Shown piece after piece: positions 621 through 10,524 of a stretch of 64,000 nt of DNA. Every line of letters starts with the position of its first letter. Within the stretch, counting starts at the first letter, position 1. The DNA is from Coleofasciculus sp. FACHB-T130. GTDB lineage: Bacteria > Cyanobacteriota > Cyanobacteriia > Cyanobacteriales > FACHB-T130. The DNA lies in the NCBI RefSeq assembly GCF_014695375.1, contig NZ_JACJOG010000028.1, positions 62,001-126,000 of the forward strand, in the 5' to 3' direction. The notes beneath the pieces were generated by a model. The model did no database searches. It was not told the origin of the DNA and was given only the letters and a program-made list of their open reading frames with translations. Position numbers and translations under genes: made by a program.

Positions 621-2723
621 ATGACATCTGAAAATTCGACTTCGCCTCAACAGATTCGCCAACCACGCCAACCACGTTCTTCGCGTAAACATACCTCCAA
701 GGTAAATACCAAAGGGCTTTATCAGAGAGCCTTCCGGGATGCTTTTGTCAAGCTCAACCCACGAATGATGCTGAAAAATCCAGTCATGTTTCTAGTGTGG
801 GTTGGTACCATCATCACTGCACTGGTAACAATTGACCCAAATTTGTTTGGCACAGTACCGGGCGAAAACCAGCGCCTATTTAATGGTCTAATTACCGTAA
901 TTCTGCTATTTACCCTGCTATTTGCTAATTTTGCGGAAGCGGTGGCAGAAGGACGCGGTAAGGCACAAGCTGACTCGATGCGGGCAACAAAATCCGACAC
1001 AACTGCTCGGAAATTATTGCCCGATGGCTCAATTGAAGAAGTCTCTTCAACTAATTTAAGGCAAGGCGATCGCATAAAAGTGATTGCTGGTGACACCATC
1101 CCCGCCGATGGGGAAGTAATTGCGGGTGTCGCCTCCGTTGATGAATCGGCAATTACTGGGGAATCTGCGCCAGTGTTGAAAGAACCCGGCTCAGATATTG
1201 CGAGTTCTGTTACCGGCGGCACGAAAATTATCTCTGATCAACTAACTCTGCGAGTAACATCCGACCCAGGTAAGGGATTTTTAGACCGGATGATTGCTTT
1301 AGTGGAAGGCGCAGAACGTAGCAAAACACCCAACGAAATCGCCTTGACGGTATTGCTGGCAGTTCTGACTCAGGTGTTTCTGATTGTCGTAGCAACGCTG
1401 CCATCATACGGAAACTACGTTAATAATCCGGTGGGCGTAGCCACGCTGATTGCTCTGTTAGTGGCGCTGATTCCTACCACGATTGGCGGCTTGCTGAGTG
1501 CGATCGGGATTGCCGGGATGGACAGAGTAGCCCAGTTTAACGTGGTAGCGACATCTGGACGAGCCGTAGAAGCGTGTGGCGATGTCAATACCCTGATTTT
1601 GGACAAAACGGGCACGATTACCTTAGGAAACCGTTTAGCTGAGGAATTCATCCCAGTTAACGGTCATTCGATGGATGAGATTGCCAAAGTTGCTCTGGCT
1701 GCCAGCGTATTTGATGAGACGCCAGAAGGCAAGTCAATTGTCAGACTCGCAGAGAAGTTAGGGTCAACAGTAGATTTTGACCGCAATGCAGCTGAAGCAA
1801 TCGAATTTTCTGCCAAAACACGCATGAGCGGTACGGATTTGCCCGATGGTCGTGAAGTCCGTAAGGGTGCGGTAGATGCGATCAAGGGATTTGTGCGTTC
1901 CCGTGGCGGTAATCTGGCACCAGACCTCGATGCCGCCTACGAAAAAGTTTCCCGGCTCGGTGGTACACCTCTAGCCGTTTGTCAAGGCAGCGACATCTAC
2001 GGCATCATTTACCTGAAAGATGTCATTAAACCAGGAATACGCGATCGCTTTGACCAACTGCGGCGGATGGGCGTTCGCACCGTGATGTTAACTGGCGACA
2101 ACCGAATCACCGCTTCCGTTATCGCCCAAGAAGCCGGAGTCGATGACTTCATCGCCGAAGCTACGCCAGAAGACAAAATCGCCGTGATTCAGCGCGAACA
2201 AGCAGCAGGTAAATTGGTTGCCATGACTGGCGATGGCACCAACGATGCCCCAGCCTTGGCTCAAGCGAATGTGGGTGTAGCGATGAACTCTGGCACTCAG
2301 GCGGCGAAAGAAGCGGCGAATATGGTGGATTTGGATTCTGACCCCACCAAGTTAATCGACTTAGTGACAATCGGCAAACAACTGTTAATTACTCGCGGGG
2401 CGCTGACTACTTTTTCCCTTTCAAATGATATAGCCAAATACTTCGCGATCATCCCCGCGATATTTGCTTCATCTGGAATTAATAGTCTCAATCTTATGGG
2501 ATTAGCGAGTGCCAAATCGGCGGTTTTATCAGCTCTGATTTACAACGCTTTGATTATTCCCGCTTTGATTCCTTTGGCGCTGACTGGAGTTAAATTCAGA
2601 CCGCTCACGGCTAATCAATTGCTGCAACGAAATATCCTAATTTATGGCTTGGGTGGAGTGATTGCGCCGTTTATTGCAATTAAAGTAATTGATGTTTTGA
2701 TTGCTGCTGTGGGTTTAGCTTAA
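621..2723 (+). CDS. kdpB: Potassium-transporting ATPase ATP-binding subunit KdpB
   Basis: KdpB is the catalytic P-type ATPase subunit that couples ATP hydrolysis to K+ uptake through KdpA. The protein has 700 residues, the usual length. It shows the actuator motif TGES, the phosphorylation motif DKTGT with the aspartate at about residue 328, the TGDN motif, and the hinge motif GDGTNDAP. Hydrophobic helices lie near residues 50-100, 240-300 and 600-700. A Ser/Arg/Gln-rich N-terminal extension of about 35 residues precedes the first helix. The gene sits 60 bases after kdpA and 47 before the small subunit gene, consistent with one transcript. It is normally induced by K+ limitation or osmotic stress; no operator is visible here. 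Confidence 0.97.
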
Positions 2724-2770
2724 AAAGAACCGCTCCAGAACACAAAGAGAAGGAGCGAACACGGAGATTT

Positions 2771-3037
2771 ATGAAGCGATTTAATTTGAGTGAGATATTT
2801 TCGGTGGAAATGGTTCAGAGTATTGATTTGTTGAAGGCGCAATGGCGCAAGCAACCTTTGCTGCGGCAACTATTTATTCTGTTGTGCTTGAATCTGCTGA
2901 TAACGCCAGCTGTGCAAGCCGCAACCGGAGGAACTCTTTCTTCAGGACAAACTTTCTGGTTGATGGCACTCGGTCTACTAACGATAACCTTGTCGATTTA
3001 CCTGTTTGTGGTTATTTTCCAACCGGAACGCTTCTAA
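2771..3037 (+). CDS. Small Kdp membrane subunit (KdpF/KdpG-like)
   Basis: An 88-residue protein with two hydrophobic segments, near residues 35-52 and 63-83. The last 13 residues (IYLFVVIFQPERF) look like KdpF, the short subunit that stabilises the Kdp complex, while the N-terminal 55 residues are extra. In Anabaena kdp operons a gene named kdpG occupies this place between kdpB and kdpC; equating this gene with kdpG rests on position and size. A purine-rich AAGGAGCG about 14 bases upstream may serve as ribosome binding site, though AACACGGAG lies closer to the ATG. The gap to kdpC is under 100 bases. Function as a pump subunit is inferred from context and the KdpF-like end. Confidence 0.8.
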   Translation: MKRFNLSEIFSVEMVQSIDLLKAQWRKQPLLRQLFILLCLNLLITPAVQAATGGTLSSGQTFWLMALGLLTITLSIYLFVVIFQPERF

Positions 3038-3133
3038 AAAACATTTTTGAGGTTTGAATTTTCAATAAAACTCAAAGCTCTGCAAGGGCAGGGTATCCCG
3101 GCTCCTACAAAACTCCCATTTTTTAGGTCTTTT

Positions 3134-3742
3134 ATGCGAGAAACTATTAAAGCAATTCGAGTCGCCTTAGTTCTCTGGATACTAACAGCAATCATTTATC
3201 CCTTGTTCACGATAATAGTTGGGCAAGTTTTGTTTTCCTATCAGGCAAATGGCAGCATCATCGAAAATCAAGGACGAGTCTATGGCTCTGCCTTAATAGG
3301 TCAACCCTTCTCTTCTCCTCAATATTTCACAAGTCGTCCTAGCACGACGAACTACAGCAGCTTTACAGCCGCAGAACGCGATCCAAAGAATATAAGTCAA
3401 ATCACTGGTGTATCTGGTGCCAGCAACCTTGCTCCTACCAATCCAGATTTACTCAAGCGAGTAGAAGCGACAACCCAACAATTGAAAGCGTCTGGTATCC
3501 AGCCCACAGCCGATATAGTTTACACCTCTGGCTCTAGCTTAGATCCTCATATCAGCGTAGAAACTGCCTATAACCAAGCCGCAAGGGTGGCGGCGGCTCG
3601 CTCTTTATCAGCAGATCGAGTTCAAGCATTAATTCCCAAATACACTGATGGTAGATTTTTGGGGATTTTCGGAGAACCTGGGGTGAATGTCCTCAAGTTG
3701 AATTTAGCGTTAGATAATTTACAATCTGCCAGTAATTTATAG
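3134..3742 (+). CDS. kdpC: Potassium-transporting ATPase subunit KdpC
   Basis: KdpC is the single-span subunit that supports ATP binding by KdpB and complex assembly. From the ATG at 3134 it has 202 residues: a membrane helix near residues 9-32, then a periplasmic domain with the family signatures GSALIGQPFSSPQYFTSRPS and DPHIS. A TTG at 3047 would add 29 residues without similarity to the usual MRETIKAIR-like start; the ATG is preferred because the helix then begins at the normal distance and TAGG precedes it by a few bases. It ends 47 bases before kdpD, a gap mostly filled with heptamer repeats. Confidence 0.93.
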   Translation: MRETIKAIRVALVLWILTAIIYPLFTIIVGQVLFSYQANGSIIENQGRVYGSALIGQPFSSPQYFTSRPSTTNYSSFTAAERDPKNISQITGVSGASNLAPTNPDLLKRVEATTQQLKASGIQPTADIVYTSGSSLDPHISVETAYNQAARVAAARSLSADRVQALIPKYTDGRFLGIFGEPGVNVLKLNLALDNLQSASNL

Positions 3743-3756
3743 TTCATCGTGAAAGG

Positions 3757-3789
3757 CAATGAACAATGAACAATTAACATCTAACAATT
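3757..3789 (+). repeat. Heptamer tandem repeat in the kdpC-kdpD gap
   Basis: Read in steps of seven the sequence is CAATGAA, CAATGAA, CAATTAA, CATCTAA, CAATT, ending at the kdpD ATG. It belongs with the other heptamer tracts of this window in showing the seven-base period and an intergenic position. The repeat occupies the place where the kdpD ribosome binding site would lie, so that site is poor. Confidence 0.6.
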
Positions 3790-4923
3790 ATGATTCCTAA
3801 AAGTGAGTTTTCAGGAGCGCTGAATTCTAACATTCGTCCCGCCCGACGAGGCAACCACAAAATATACATTGGCATGGCTCCCGGTGTCGGCAAAACTTAC
3901 CGGATGCTGGAAGAAGCCCACCAACTTAAACAGGAAGGGATTGATGTTGTTATCGGGTTGCTGGAAACCCACGGGCGAAAGGAGACGGCTCAAAAAGCTC
4001 AGGGGCTGGAGATAATACCCCGTAAAACAATTATTAGAGGCGGGATGACTCTGACAGAAATGGATACAGATACCATTTTGGAGCGTCAGCCGCAGTTGGT
4101 GTTAGTAGATGAACTGGCGCATACAAATGTCCCCGGTTCCGTACGGGAAAAGCGCTACCAAGATGTTGAGGTAATTTTGGATGCGGGAATTGATGTCAAT
4201 TCTACGGTAAATATCCAGCATCTAGAAAGTCTCAATGATTTGGTGGCGCGAATTACTGGCGTTGTGGTACGAGAACGCATTCCAGATCGGTTGTTGGATG
4301 AAGCAACGCAAGTAGTGGTGATTGACGTTACGCCGGAAACTTTGGAAGAAAGGCTAGTGGAGGGAAAAATCTACGCGCCGGATAAGATAGATCGGGCGCT
4401 ACAAAATTTCTTTCAACGGCGTCATTTAGTAGCGTTGCGAGAGCTGGCACTACGCGAGGTGGCGGACAACGTTGAAGAGGACGCGATTACTTCTACACCC
4501 AGTGATGGATTTTGCTCAGTTCACGAACGGGTGCTGGTGTGTATTTCGACTTATCCAAATTCGGTACAACTGTTGCGACGCGGGGCGCGAATTGCTGATT
4601 ATATGAGGGGTCGCCTGTATGCGGTGTTTGTGTCCCATCCGGAACGCTTTTTGACTAAGGAAGAAAGTTTATATATTGAAACTTGCGAGAAGCTAACTTT
4701 GGAATTTGGCGGGGAATTTTTAAGAGTAACTAATCTTGACGTACCGCAGGCGATTGCCTCTGTTGCTCAACAGTATCGGATTACTCAAGTGGTGCTTGGG
4801 CATTCTCAAAAATCTCGTTGGGAGTTATTCTGGAAGGGGTCTTTTGTCCAGAAGTTGATGCGCTATCTCAAAAATATCGATTTGCACATCATTGCAGCTG
4901 AACAAACCTCATCTAAGCAATAA
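3790..4923 (+). CDS. kdpD: Short KdpD: N-terminal sensor domain plus USP, no histidine kinase
   Basis: This 377-residue protein corresponds to the N-terminal half of the KdpD sensor. Residues about 25-235 form the KdpD domain with Walker A PGVGKT (residues 31-36) and a Walker B-like segment LVLVDELAHTNVPG. Residues about 245-370 resemble the universal stress protein domain. The four membrane helices, GAF, HisKA and ATPase domains of the roughly 900-residue enterobacterial KdpD are absent, and the stop is followed by an unrelated gene, so this is a genuine short form and not a frameshift product. Short KdpD proteins at the end of kdp operons are known from Anabaena. No kdpE response regulator is in the window, so the partner kinase must be elsewhere or the protein acts by another route. 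Confidence 0.93.
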   Translation: MIPKSEFSGALNSNIRPARRGNHKIYIGMAPGVGKTYRMLEEAHQLKQEGIDVVIGLLETHGRKETAQKAQGLEIIPRKTIIRGGMTLTEMDTDTILERQPQLVLVDELAHTNVPGSVREKRYQDVEVILDAGIDVNSTVNIQHLESLNDLVARITGVVVRERIPDRLLDEATQVVVIDVTPETLEERLVEGKIYAPDKIDRALQNFFQRRHLVALRELALREVADNVEEDAITSTPSDGFCSVHERVLVCISTYPNSVQLLRRGARIADYMRGRLYAVFVSHPERFLTKEESLYIETCEKLTLEFGGEFLRVTNLDVPQAIASVAQQYRITQVVLGHSQKSRWELFWKGSFVQKLMRYLKNIDLHIIAAEQTSSKQ

Positions 4924-6316: not shown

Positions 6317-9300
6317 ATGACGACCTTCCCGCCTCAAAAAAACACAGCTCACGATCGGCGTCGGTGTTATTGCCTAAATCCTAATTGTCAGCAGCCAGAA
6401 AATCCTGGAAATGCCGCAATCTGCGAAAGTTGCGGATCGCAATTACTGCTGAGCGATCGCTATCGTGCGATTAAACCGATTGGTCAAGGAGGTATGGGGA
6501 GAACTTTCCTGGCTGTGGATATATCCCAGCCATCGGAACCGCGCTGTGTCATTAAACAGTTTTTTCCTCAACAACAAGGAACTAATAATCGCCAAAAAGC
6601 AGCAGAGTTATTCCGTCAAGAAGCAACTCGCTTAGAGGTTGTTGGGAAACATCATCAAATTCCCGAACTGCTTGCATATTTTGAGCAAGATGACCATCAG
6701 TATTTAGTGCAACAGTTTATCGATGGAGAAAACTTAGCTCAAGAATTAGCCAAAAAAGGACCGTTTAAAGAAATAGAAATTCGGCAACTCCTGCAAAGTT
6801 TGCTGCCAGTGTTGCAATTTGTCCACAGTCAACAGATGATTCACCGGGATATTAAACCCGAAAACATCATCCGCAACCGTCGAGATGGCAAACTCGTGTT
6901 AGTCGATTTTGGCGCAGCAAAGTATGCGACTGAGACGATGCTAGGCAGAACCGGAACGGTTATTGGTTCTGCTGCGTATACGGCTCCCGAACAAGTAAAA
7001 GGGAAAGCGATTTTTGCCAGCGATGTGTATAGTTTGGGTGTTACTTGTATCCATTTGCTCACCCAAATTCCTCCTTTCGATCTAAGCGATACGAGTGAAG
7101 ATACCTGGGTTTGGCGGGATTTCTTGAAGACGCCAGTCAGTAAACAGTTTGGTAGCATTCTCGACAAAATGCTGCAAACAGGTACGAAGCGGCGCTATCA
7201 ATCAGCAGATGAAGTATTGCAAGATTTGAATGGGCGATCGCTCCCAACTACTAAACGTAATTCTAAGAAAAAATGGCTGATAGCCGGTGCCTTCCTATTG
7301 TTTGGATATGCGGGAGTGCGGTACTTAGCTTCGCCTGTGGTAGAGATGGTGACTCAGGAAGTTGAGAGGCAAGCATCTCTGACGGAAGGCAGCTTATTCG
7401 CGATTGTGGATGGACAGGAGCGAGTGTTTCCGTTGAAACATACGGAAGTTGTGGCGAAAGTCACAGGGAATGTGTCGCGGGTGGAGGTAACGCAGACCTT
7501 TGAAAATCCCTTTAACAATCCTTTAGAAGCGGTCTATAAATTTCCACTCCCCGATGAAGCGGCAGTGGATGACATGGAAATAAAAGTAGGCAATCGCATC
7601 ATCCGAGGCGTTATCAAAAAACGCGAAGAAGCAAAGCAAATTTACGAACAAGCCAAACAAGAAGGAAAAACTGCTGCCTTATTAGACCAAGAACGAGACA
7701 ATATTTTTACTCAGTCCTTGGCTAACATCAAACCAGGCGAAAAAATCGATGTCACAATTCGCTACAGTGAAAGCCTGAAGTTTGAAAAAGGTAGCTATGA
7801 ATTTGTCTTTCCTATGGTGGTAGGGCCACGCTATATCTCAGGACCTTCAACGAATAGCAACAGCAATACAAACTCAGTTACCGACACTTCGCAAATCAAT
7901 CCGCCGACTTTACCAGCCGGAAGCCGTTCTGGACAAAATATTGGCGTAACCGTTGAAATCGAAGCCGGGGTGCCAGTCAAAGAAGTGCGATCGCCTTCTC
8001 ATCAAATCCGTACCACTCAAGATGGTCGCATCATGCGGGTTGAATTGAGCAAGGAAAACGCAATTCCGAATAAAGACCTGATTTTACGTTATCAGGTATC
8101 GAGTGCCCAAACCCAGTCCACAGTATTATCAGAGGCGGATGAACGCGGCGGTCACTTTGCCACCTATTTAATTCCAGCCGTGGAATATCAAAGTAATGAG
8201 ATTGTACCCAAAGATGTGGTATTTCTCATGGATACTTCTGGCTCTCAAAGTGGACCGCCAATTGAGCAATCAAAGGAACTGATGCGCCGGTTTATCAATG
8301 GACTCAATCCCGGCGATACCTTTAATGTTGTTGACTTTTCCGATAGCGCGACGCAGCTATCTCCTATACCTTTACCGAATACGCCGCAAAACCGTGAGAA
8401 AGCCCTAAATTATATCAATCGCCTAGATGCTAACGGTGGCACCGAGTTATTTAATGGCATTCAAACTGTGTTGAATTTCCCCGCCGCGCCAGAAGGACGC
8501 CTGCGGAGTATTGTCTTGATTACTGACGGTTTGATCGATCAAGACCAGCAAGCGATCGCAGAAATTAAAAAGAGGCTGAAGCCGGGAAATCGTCTTTATA
8601 GTTTCGGTGTTGGCCCTTCAGTGAACCGCTTCTTGATCGATCGTTTAGCAGAGGAAGGACGGGGCACTTCAGAAGTCGTTCCCCCTAGAGAATCCGCCCA
8701 AAAAGTCGTCGAAAAGTTCTCCCAACAGATCAATAATCCCGTACTTACGAATATCGAAGTGAACTGGGAAGGGAGTGGAAAAGCACCGCAAATCTATCCG
8801 ATCAAACCCCCTGATTTGTTTGCCAATCAGCCTTTGGTGTTATTTGGACGTAAAGGCGATCGCGCTAAAGGAACTTTGCGAATTACTGGAATCGTCGCCG
8901 GTGGTAAACGCTATGAGAAGAAGTTACCGATTGAATTTGATGGCGGTGGCAATAGCGCGATCGCTCAACTTTGGGGACGCGCCCGGATTAAAGATTTGAT
9001 GAATGAAATCTATGCTGGCGAAAACCCAAATAATGTCAAAGCCGTTACCGATACCGCGCTAGCTTATCGGTTGTTGTCGCAATACACCTCCTTTGTTGCT
9101 GTCACGGAAGAAGTGCGAGTCGATTCCAAGAAAACTCAGCAGGTGCAAGTGCCGGTAGAAACGCCAGAGGGTATGAACGCCGAAGCAACGTCTAGCCAAA
9201 ACGGTAACGTGCCTTCACTCAGCCAAGCGCCACCACCTAGCAAAGCGTTAGTTGCTAGCAAACCTACTGCTAGCAAAATGCCGTCAGCACCGTCAGCACC

Positions 9301-9481
9301 GTCAGCAGCGAACAGCCAGCCGCTATCTAGCTCAGCACAGCCATCCAGCCAATCGTTAAATCCCGATCCAGTGCCCGAACCCAGCCAAATCTTAGGCAAC
9401 ATCTTGGCTGTTCTCTTGCTGGGAATGTACTTTGCCTGGAAGCGGTTGAAGGGTTTGAAAAGCACTCCGCCTGGAAACTAA
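6317..9481 (+). CDS. Zinc-ribbon Ser/Thr kinase fused to VIT and VWA domains with a PEP-CTERM-like end
   Basis: A 1054-residue multidomain protein. Residues 17-39 hold five cysteines (C17, C19, C24, C36, C39) like a zinc ribbon. Residues about 50-305 are a Hanks-type kinase: GQGGMGRT loop (57-64), candidate ATP lysine K80, HRDIKPEN (H176) and DFG (197-199). A membrane helix spans about 320-338. Residues about 355-490 match a VIT domain, and 630-800 a VWA domain with the metal site DTSGS (D639). A Ser/Pro/Ala-rich linker follows, then PEP (1020-1022), a hydrophobic helix and a basic cluster KRLKGLK. The predicted topology is kinase inside, VIT-VWA outside. AAAAGGG precedes the ATG. The convergent neighbour is a cyanoexosortase. 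Substrates are unknown. Confidence 0.93.
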   Translation: MTTFPPQKNTAHDRRRCYCLNPNCQQPENPGNAAICESCGSQLLLSDRYRAIKPIGQGGMGRTFLAVDISQPSEPRCVIKQFFPQQQGTNNRQKAAELFRQEATRLEVVGKHHQIPELLAYFEQDDHQYLVQQFIDGENLAQELAKKGPFKEIEIRQLLQSLLPVLQFVHSQQMIHRDIKPENIIRNRRDGKLVLVDFGAAKYATETMLGRTGTVIGSAAYTAPEQVKGKAIFASDVYSLGVTCIHLLTQIPPFDLSDTSEDTWVWRDFLKTPVSKQFGSILDKMLQTGTKRRYQSADEVLQDLNGRSLPTTKRNSKKKWLIAGAFLLFGYAGVRYLASPVVEMVTQEVERQASLTEGSLFAIVDGQERVFPLKHTEVVAKVTGNVSRVEVTQTFENPFNNPLEAVYKFPLPDEAAVDDMEIKVGNRIIRGVIKKREEAKQIYEQAKQEGKTAALLDQERDNIFTQSLANIKPGEKIDVTIRYSESLKFEKGSYEFVFPMVVGPRYISGPSTNSNSNTNSVTDTSQINPPTLPAGSRSGQNIGVTVEIEAGVPVKEVRSPSHQIRTTQDGRIMRVELSKENAIPNKDLILRYQVSSAQTQSTVLSEADERGGHFATYLIPAVEYQSNEIVPKDVVFLMDTSGSQSGPPIEQSKELMRRFINGLNPGDTFNVVDFSDSATQLSPIPLPNTPQNREKALNYINRLDANGGTELFNGIQTVLNFPAAPEGRLRSIVLITDGLIDQDQQAIAEIKKRLKPGNRLYSFGVGPSVNRFLIDRLAEEGRGTSEVVPPRESAQKVVEKFSQQINNPVLTNIEVNWEGSGKAPQIYPIKPPDLFANQPLVLFGRKGDRAKGTLRITGIVAGGKRYEKKLPIEFDGGGNSAIAQLWGRARIKDLMNEIYAGENPNNVKAVTDTALAYRLLSQYTSFVAVTEEVRVDSKKTQQVQVPVETPEGMNAEATSSQNGNVPSLSQAPPPSKALVASKPTASKMPSAPSAPSAANSQPLSSSAQPSSQSLNPDPVPEPSQILGNILAVLLLGMYFAWKRLKGLKSTPPGN
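9374..9460 (+). other. PEP-CTERM-like sorting signal at the end of the kinase-VIT-VWA protein
   Basis: The codons give P-E-P-S-Q, then a hydrophobic stretch of about 17 residues, then FAWKRLKGLK. A PEP motif, a membrane helix and a basic tail within the last 35 residues is the layout recognised by exosortases. It is preceded by a long low-complexity linker, also typical of such proteins. About six residues follow the basic cluster, which is slightly longer than most signals. Confidence 0.65.
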
Positions 9482-9568
9482 TCCCAGTCCACTTTTTTAC
9501 CGCTATATTAAACTTCATCAGTCAAAAATATAGCAATCCTGTTTTAATTGTGAGCTTCCAGCCTTTCC

Positions 9569-9600
9569 GCTCCCCGACTTCGTAAAAGTTGTCGGGGAGC
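9569..9600. terminator. Hairpin between convergent kinase and exosortase genes
   Basis: GCTCCCCGAC at 9569-9578 pairs perfectly with GTCGGGGAGC at 9591-9600, with a 12-base loop. It lies between two convergent genes, so it can serve as a terminator for either; the following T tract is interrupted. Confidence 0.65.
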
Positions 9601-9638
9601 TTGCTTTCACGCATCCTTTAAGAGTGCTATAGGTGCAA

Positions 9639-10478
9639 TTAAAATTCTACGGAATTCTCATTTTTGCTGCCTGGTTTTAACAGCCAAAATCGACAAATTA
9701 ATCCGAAAATAAATACAGAAATCATAGAAAAGATTACAGAACCATCACCAAGATGCCAATATTCAAAAGCTTCTTTATTTGATAACCCTGCCAAAACCGT
9801 CATCAAAGCCACCCGTATCCCATTTAGCGTAAAGGCTACGATGACAGCAACGAATGGTAATAAAATCTTTTCCTTTAATTTAGTTGGAAAAATGAGTAAA
9901 ACAACTAAAGCTAACCCCAATAGCTGAAGGATAGTACCTACACCGGCACAAGCTCCGCCAATTTGTACAGACCCAGTTGGCAAACTTAAAATCTCCCCTT
10001 GCTGCACAACGGGGAATCCTAAAAACCAAAGAATAACAGATGTAAGTTTAGCGGTTAATAAAGATACATTAAAAAATTTCAATATTAATTCTTGATTTAA
10101 GACGAAAAAAGCCAGTAGCAGCAATTCCCGCCAATACTGCTTTAATCCTTTAACCCCAGAGGCAATTAAACCCAAGCCCAGCATTGAAATCAAAGGTGTA
10201 ACGTGAAGGGTAAAACCATAGCCGGGGTAAAGACTTTTAAAGAGTACCAAACTAATCAGTGCGAACCCAAAAATGCTAGAAAAATCATCGCTTTTCAGCT
10301 CTAATCCGTCCCGTTTCTGCCAAAGTAGGGATGATACCGCAGCCCAAAATAAGAAGCTTGTACTCAGCAGTTCAGTATTGCCACTCCTCCAAGTCAAAGT
10401 AAGATGAATTGTAATTAAGCCTGCCGCGATCGCTATCAACCAGAGTTTCAAGTCTTTGACAAGTTTTAGCCTGCTCAT
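9639..10478 (-). CDS. Cyanoexosortase (exosortase/archaeosortase family)
   Basis: A polytopic membrane protein of 279 residues (290 from the upstream GTG at 10511) with about seven hydrophobic helices. It shows the exosortase catalytic set in order: Cys in GGACAGVG (C188 counted from the GTG), Arg in NGIRVALM (R233) and His in EYWHLGDG (H253). Exosortases cleave C-terminal PEP-CTERM signals at the outer face of the inner membrane and are linked with exopolysaccharide production. The ATG at 10478 is preferred over the GTG because the extra 11 residues carry no recognisable feature. The convergent neighbour ends in a PEP-CTERM-like signal, so the two may be enzyme and substrate. The exact cyanoexosortase subtype is not decided. 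Confidence 0.85.
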   Translation of the reverse strand: MSRLKLVKDLKLWLIAIAAGLITIHLTLTWRSGNTELLSTSFLFWAAVSSLLWQKRDGLELKSDDFSSIFGFALISLVLFKSLYPGYGFTLHVTPLISMLGLGLIASGVKGLKQYWRELLLLAFFVLNQELILKFFNVSLLTAKLTSVILWFLGFPVVQQGEILSLPTGSVQIGGACAGVGTILQLLGLALVVLLIFPTKLKEKILLPFVAVIVAFTLNGIRVALMTVLAGLSNKEAFEYWHLGDGSVIFSMISVFIFGLICRFWLLKPGSKNENSVEF

Positions 10479-10524
10479 GATTCGATAAAAGTTTTGCTCG
10501 GTAGGACACACCCGCTGGCTGCGG

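Follow-up and report, generated by a model that had tools for sequence, protein, structure and literature searches.

The window analysed here, a stretch of 64,000 nucleotides from Coleofasciculus sp. FACHB-T130 (contig NZ_JACJOG010000028.1, positions 62,001 to 126,000), carries a gene for a fused protein of 1054 residues (6317..9481, plus strand), in which a Hanks-type kinase is joined to VIT and VWA domains and to a tail resembling PEP-CTERM, and beside it, in convergent orientation, a gene for cyanoexosortase A (CrtA). The protein can be considered a candidate receptor-like Ser/Thr kinase spanning the membrane twice, whose PEP tail would be recognised and cut by CrtA, or by cyanoexosortase B (CrtB) where A is absent; we give this reading a probability of about 0.7. 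It is suggested by sequence comparison, namely by the architecture, the topology pattern, the conservation of the tail, the recurrent pairing of the two genes and the apparent tracking of tail class with enzyme class. According to the proposed mechanism, the protein would cross the inner membrane twice, with the kinase inside, the VIT-VWA part in the periplasm, and the tail of PEP, helix and basic residues serving as a second anchor. CrtA (CrtB in relatives without A) would recognise this tail and cut it at a point separating PEP from the helix. The VIT-VWA ectodomain would thereby lose its membrane attachment at this end and might be transferred to an envelope or exopolysaccharide acceptor, and the kinase would remain anchored through its first helix. 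The result would be a one-pass kinase reporting on the binding partner or attachment site of its processed ectodomain; the cleavage, the acceptor, the signal and the kinase output are all predictions of this scheme.

All the domains lie in one open reading frame (ORF) on the plus strand. A four-cysteine prefix (residues 18-43, 6368..6445; NF045510, 37.3 bits against a cut-off of 24) is followed by the Hanks-type kinase domain (residues 49-302, 6461..7222; PF00069, Pkinase, 135.8 bits), a first membrane helix (residues 321-337, 7277..7327), a VIT domain (residues 373-483, 7433..7765; PF08487, 133.9 bits), a VWA domain (residues 633-786, 8213..8674; PF13768, VWA_3, 73.5 bits), and a spacer rich in Pro, Ser and Ala (residues 946-1018, 9152..9370), which in an alignment of homologues differs greatly in length. 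The C-terminus contains all three elements expected of a sorting tail: the PEP motif (residues 1020-1022, 9374..9382), a hydrophobic helix (residues 1025-1041, 9389..9439) and the basic cluster KRLKGLK (residues 1042-1048, 9440..9460); the tail reads VPEPSQILGNILAVLLLGMYFAWKRLKGLK. The prefix, Pkinase, VIT and VWA all score above their profile cut-offs, and together with hydropathy these profiles bear out the order of domains, from the N-terminal prefix (there called a zinc ribbon) to the basic end, that a preliminary description had read from the letters alone. Kinase residues K80, HRD 176-178 and DFG 197-199 are invariant in an alignment of 12 sequences, as are DTSGS 639-643, T709 and D737 of the VWA domain; by its motifs the kinase is predicted to be active.

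Hydropathy places two segments of the window protein above threshold, 321-337 and 1025-1041. Counted over the 15 flanking residues, the net charge goes from +6 to -2 across the first helix and from -2 to +4 across the C-terminal segment. At both segments this bias fits, as expected, the predicted topology of kinase in, VIT-VWA out and tail in, in agreement with the earlier proposal. When hydropathy was applied to 31 of the 37 fused sequences, the others having been removed by a motif and length filter, 28 showed such a segment at the first-helix position and 29 showed one at the C-terminus; proteins of the PEPSF group have a weak charge bias around the latter. No hydrophobic segment above threshold precedes residues 321-337 by hydropathy, the only measure applied (no signal-peptide program was used), and an N-terminal signal peptide is thus not in evidence. 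An AlphaFold model built from 12 sequences, with a mean predicted local distance difference test score (pLDDT) of 58.2, was too low in confidence for a fold search and was used cautiously and only for the positions of the helices (317-334 and 1022-1048) and for the spacer, which has low pLDDT and no secondary structure.

The fused gene is present in 36 cyanobacterial genomes, those with identical contig coordinates being counted once. A survey of 292 genomes of the phylum yielded at least three fused genes (in G000, the window's genome, in G229 and in G211), that of the family found the gene in five of six genomes, and that of the order in at least 33 of 388; the phylum and order counts are lower bounds, two best candidates having been scored per genome. 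Three further genomes are G477, which belongs to the order set and was missed in the survey, the gene being broken in its metagenome-assembled genome (MAG), G299 and G307. Carriers named among the 80 loci kept of 529, which do not amount to a census, include Microseira wollei, Oscillatoria princeps, and Symploca and Okeania MAGs. PEP immediately precedes the helix in 35 of the 36 main copies, despite the great variation in spacer length. These include the copy of G307, which is known in pieces: its kinase half and tail half lie on two contigs (L081, L203) with 96% identity over a 165-residue overlap, so that the MAG would hold two copies or mixed strains, and the tail could come from a near copy of the fused gene. 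Second fused copies, kept apart from the 36, occur in three genomes (G367b, G403b, G379b), and one of them keeps PEP; those at loci L330 and L331 are tailless, and an internal TAG is reported for one of the two. When a FastTree tree was built from the VIT-VWA part, 37 fused copies grouped in a single clade (local support 1.0) that excludes the 24 standalone VIT-VWA proteins. Kinase ORFs in the loci of relatives number 90, of which 87 are distinct; PEP together with a hydrophobic stretch occurs only in the four fused ones and in none of the other 83. Judging from these sequences, the tail belongs to the fusion.

PEP-CTERM was absent from the families shown in a scan of the whole window protein, and its tail, scanned separately, stayed just under the cut-offs (scores are given below), so that the relatives had to decide. 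Among 31 family tails scanned singly against TIGR02595, 12 pass the cut-off, 12 fall below it and seven give no match, matches being counted at E up to 10 (24 of 31); these 31 come from 37 PEP or PEG tails, the other six being one identical tail, four near copies and one PEG tail. PF07589 matches eight of 19 family tails, with a best E of 0.0066. As a control, TIGR02595 matched none of ten tails (last 45 residues) of standalone VIT-VWA proteins; all ten match part of the after-VIT domain NF033769, which is above its cut-off in two standalone proteins scanned whole. Within the last 60 residues PEP was found in none of 24 standalone VIT-VWA proteins. A profile built from 13 tails of the PEPxxxxGN (GN) type was run against 18 genomes. 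In 14 of them it recovered the fused gene, at values of 1e-16 or lower, and no other protein came below 4e-4; of the remaining four, G296 lacks a fused gene and three carry PEPSF tails. Since such a profile is bound to recover its own members, what counts is its separation from other proteins. By sequence, there is a good case for a putative sorting-type tail. Matching the last 40 residues to PEP-CTERM profiles, as the preliminary description had proposed, gave a divided answer, negative by the cut-offs for the window tail and positive for 12 of the 31 family tails.

The convergent gene (9639..10511, minus strand; start at GTG 10511 or at ATG 10478, the latter being the end given in the preliminary description) encodes CrtA, with 266.8 bits to TIGR03763 (cut-off 150) and 146.6 bits to PF09721. 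The predicted catalytic residues, counted from the GTG and all encoded on the minus strand, are Cys 188 (9948..9950), Arg 233 (9813..9815) and His 253 (9753..9755). They are found in 49, 48 and 48, respectively, of 49 aligned exosortases, one gene being entered twice in the alignment and the missing Arg and His each falling to one truncated sequence; the Cys-Arg-His triad noticed earlier is thereby confirmed. Between the two genes lies a strong hairpin (9569..9600), within an 81-nt stretch with a z of -4.58 and none of 200 shuffles as stable, which is probably a terminator common to both. The window's genome encodes both CrtA and CrtB.

In 14 of the 36 genomes the fused gene has CrtA, its partner TIGR04153 or both within 5 kb in convergent orientation. 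In 12 of them (G000, its nearest relative G294, G295, G293, G403, G379, G367, G359, G299, G458, G434 and G307) the neighbour is direct, that is, with no intervening ORF of at least 100 residues taken for a gene; in G315 and G477 other ORFs stand in between. In G458 only the partner TIGR04153 is visible before the contig ends, and in G307 the evidence of pairing sits on the contig with the tail half. Where kinship is given, the direct cases span four families (f1, f47, f55, f12) and all 14 span six (f46 and f11 in addition). All seven partner proteins scanned from homologous loci pass TIGR04153, and by eye the pair is kept while the outer neighbours vary between loci. In G296, of the same genus as G295, the syntenic site has lost CrtA together with nearly the whole kinase gene, of which a 27-residue scrap remains beside aat (L336, 7446-7526), followed by eye by a transposase-like ORF at the contig end; this genome keeps another CrtA and CrtB. 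As far as gene order and sequence can indicate, there is a fair to good case for CrtA as the cognate enzyme of the fused kinase. A stronger version holds that CrtA and the kinase constitute a dedicated receptor of one enzyme and one substrate, in which the cut C-terminus of the ectodomain would be joined to an exopolysaccharide or envelope polymer and the kinase, covalently tethered, would sense attachment to the matrix or its tension. This we regard as conceivable though unlikely.

The tails can be divided into PEPxxxxGN and others, and this class appears to track that of the exosortase. Of 21 genomes with GN tails, 18 have CrtA above cut-off and three (G381, G357, G211) have a near-CrtA at 138-146 bits against 150; among the 15 with other tails CrtA is found in eight. 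Fisher's test of tail class against CrtA gives p 0.0008 with near-CrtA counted, kinship and the post hoc split being uncorrected.

Several observations weigh against the reading of the tail as one processed by CrtA or CrtB. The window tail (last 40-42 residues) reaches 15.0-15.1 bits with TIGR02595 against a cut-off of 16, and 13.1-13.2 bits with PF07589 against 20.7. From the 14 CrtA-linked loci 13 tails were scanned; only two (G295, G307) pass TIGR02595, three have no match (G359, G299, G434), the other non-passing ones score 11-15 bits, and the majority of passing tails come from loci without an exosortase neighbour; since so few pass, the CrtA-linked tails are, to judge by their sequences, a divergent group barely visible to the general profile. 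The main copy of G391 has PEG in place of PEP and keeps the helix, the only such case among the 36, and the second copies G403b and G379b are without a tail. In 22 of the 36 genomes there is no neighbouring exosortase in the 0.5-10 kb read downstream (the contigs of G376, G468 and G519 end within 3 kb), and all listed CrtA and CrtB matches of these genomes lie elsewhere. TIGR04153 has no match in the genomes of G000 and G294, though CrtA is present. An exosortase is found in all 36 fused genomes, and its presence in 33 of the 33 found in the survey amounts to p 0.013 with kinship ignored, exosortases occurring in 342 of the 388 genomes of the order (88%); TIGR04153 occurs in 20 of these 33 as compared with 193 of 388 overall (E up to 0.001). 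Co-occurrence at the genome level was rejected as a main argument because exosortases are near-universal in the order and TIGR04153 is hardly enriched. Of the survey suggested earlier, adjacency was seen in 14 of 36 genomes (within 5 kb), and co-occurrence proved weak as an argument. The division of tails was made only after their inspection, and without near-CrtA Fisher's test gives p 0.058 on the same uncorrected basis.

Much of this would suit a tail that is a mere second membrane anchor, holding the VIT-VWA part as a periplasmic loop, with no action of an exosortase and with CrtA as a coincidental neighbour; the window tail below both cut-offs, the few CrtA-linked tails that pass, the 22 genomes with no exosortase nearby and the PEG of G391 all count in its favour. 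A plain anchor, however, does not need a PEP motif whose position is kept in 35 of 36 divergent copies. It is also opposed by the lack of such a tail in the 83 other distinct kinase ORFs of relatives, by the convergent pairing in 14 genomes and by the joint loss in G296, and we consider it quite improbable.

The tail might also be processed by the general CrtB, the closeness of CrtA being an inherited neighbourhood with no substrate relation. CrtB is above cut-off in 30 of the 36 fused genomes, and seven of these genomes have CrtB and no CrtA, all seven with non-GN tails and five, from Okeania and its kin, with PEPSF tails; moreover, in the available parts of the report on Nostoc, loss of CrtB alters PEP-CTERM proteins in the exoproteome (PMC12188702). 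Yet the six genomes without an above-cut-off CrtB (G340, G381, G357, G434, G211, G494) all have CrtA or near-CrtA, all 21 genomes with GN tails have a CrtA-type enzyme, and the pair, by eye, persists amid differing outer neighbours. This reading we consider distinctly improbable. That the exosortase step serves only quality control or turnover, the cut allowing the receptor to be folded, sorted or degraded with no signalling meaning, we consider highly improbable. The catalytic residues of the kinase and the metal-site residues of the VWA domain do not vary across the alignment of 12 sequences, so that the two ends of the protein both seem to be under selection, which by itself does not distinguish signalling from turnover.

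The proposal of the preliminary description that an exosortase acts on the kinase thus gains from the topology, the conserved PEP-CTERM-type tail and the gene link, with cleavage by CrtA, and a changed link of the kinase to the envelope, as predicted steps. None of the conditions under which that description would have given up its proposal came about: 12 of the 31 tails scanned singly pass TIGR02595, loss of PEP with the helix retained is seen in one main copy of 36, and an exosortase is present in all 36 genomes. If the kinase is a substrate, the exosortase system, and perhaps its exopolysaccharide, would be linked to phosphorylation signalling. CrtA would gain a concrete candidate substrate encoded next door, which would allow the two to be tested together.

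Upstream of the fused gene, at 621-4923 of the window, genes resembling kdpB and kdpC were recognised by eye, together with a KdpD-like sensor part that lacks a histidine kinase domain. Locus L122, from a record titled as a Rhodobacteraceae MAG, carries a cyanobacterial-type kinase, and this contig was probably misbinned. The possibility of a target of a diversity-generating retroelement, prompted by a paper dealing with these elements and with kinases of cyanobacteria (PMC7517822), was set aside with no scan for template repeats made.

Among the titles and abstract openings listed from the open-access literature, no publication on a kinase with a PEP-CTERM tail or as an exosortase substrate was found, nor, among the papers listed on cyanoexosortase, a study of a CrtA substrate. 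Among the closest published relatives are homologous VIT-VWA proteins with LPXTG and a dedicated adjacent sortase (TIGR03784), with GlyGly-CTERM, or with PEP-CTERM tails, the last in Verrucomicrobium spinosum, as given in excerpts of PMC3237569 and in NCBIfam TIGR03788. VIT-VWA proteins with sortase signals, which the preliminary description had mentioned for some proteobacteria, do exist, in a range broader than stated there. They have in common with the window protein the VIT-VWA module, a tail of motif, helix and basic residues, and a sorting-enzyme gene that is sometimes adjacent; the window protein differs in its N-terminal cytoplasmic kinase and signal anchor, in having an exosortase as the neighbour, and in its score with TIGR03788 (sortase target), which at 493.6 bits over residues 376-958 lies below the cut-off of 551.65.

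Within cyanobacteria, a role of CrtB has been published for Nostoc punctiforme, with PEP-CTERM targets described, in the portions seen, as having an N-terminal signal sequence (PMC12188702); its main text gave no match for kinase, CrtA or VIT. The tail of PEP, helix and basic residues, an exosortase in the same genome and, at a number of loci, TIGR04153 are common to that system and to the window protein, whose kinase, in contrast, would stay cytoplasmic and whose neighbour is CrtA. In the available passages of the 2006 paper defining PEP-CTERM, re-analysis points to a signal-peptide site in 97%; a helix between signal and tail is absent, save in one integral membrane family of three members (PMC1569441). 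This may be TIGR02921, of which the window's genome has one PEP-CTERM protein (L244, 1-1596; 695.1 bits to profile positions 402-922). It shares a VIT domain (34 bits) and a PEP tail with the window protein; however, its tail is of the general PEPS type, and no kinase was found in the part scanned. A kinase with VWA has been reported for a Pseudomonas protein in a survey of kinase architectures (PMC1262709), the consulted part of which contains none with VIT or PEP-CTERM.

The relatives of the kinase domain among solved structures include StkP and PknB, and NF033483 matches with 146.2 bits as compared with a cut-off of 450. Kinases of the PknB/StkP type share the kinase domain with the window protein and have the kinase inside, one helix, and a sensor outside; their ectodomain consists of PASTA repeats, whereas that of the window protein would be VIT-VWA with a sorting tail. 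Relatives of the ectodomain with solved structures include the animal proteins PARP4 (E 5e-44) and the inter-alpha-trypsin inhibitor heavy chain H4, ITIH4 (E 5.5e-36), from an unrelated setting; the heavy chains of this inhibitor are linked through their C-terminus to hyaluronan. Compared with all these systems, the new aspect looks to be a candidate sorting substrate in which a kinase lies in the cytoplasm and an N-terminal signal peptide is not apparent; the outer part of a receptor kinase may undergo the same kind of processing as the surface proteins of the cell.

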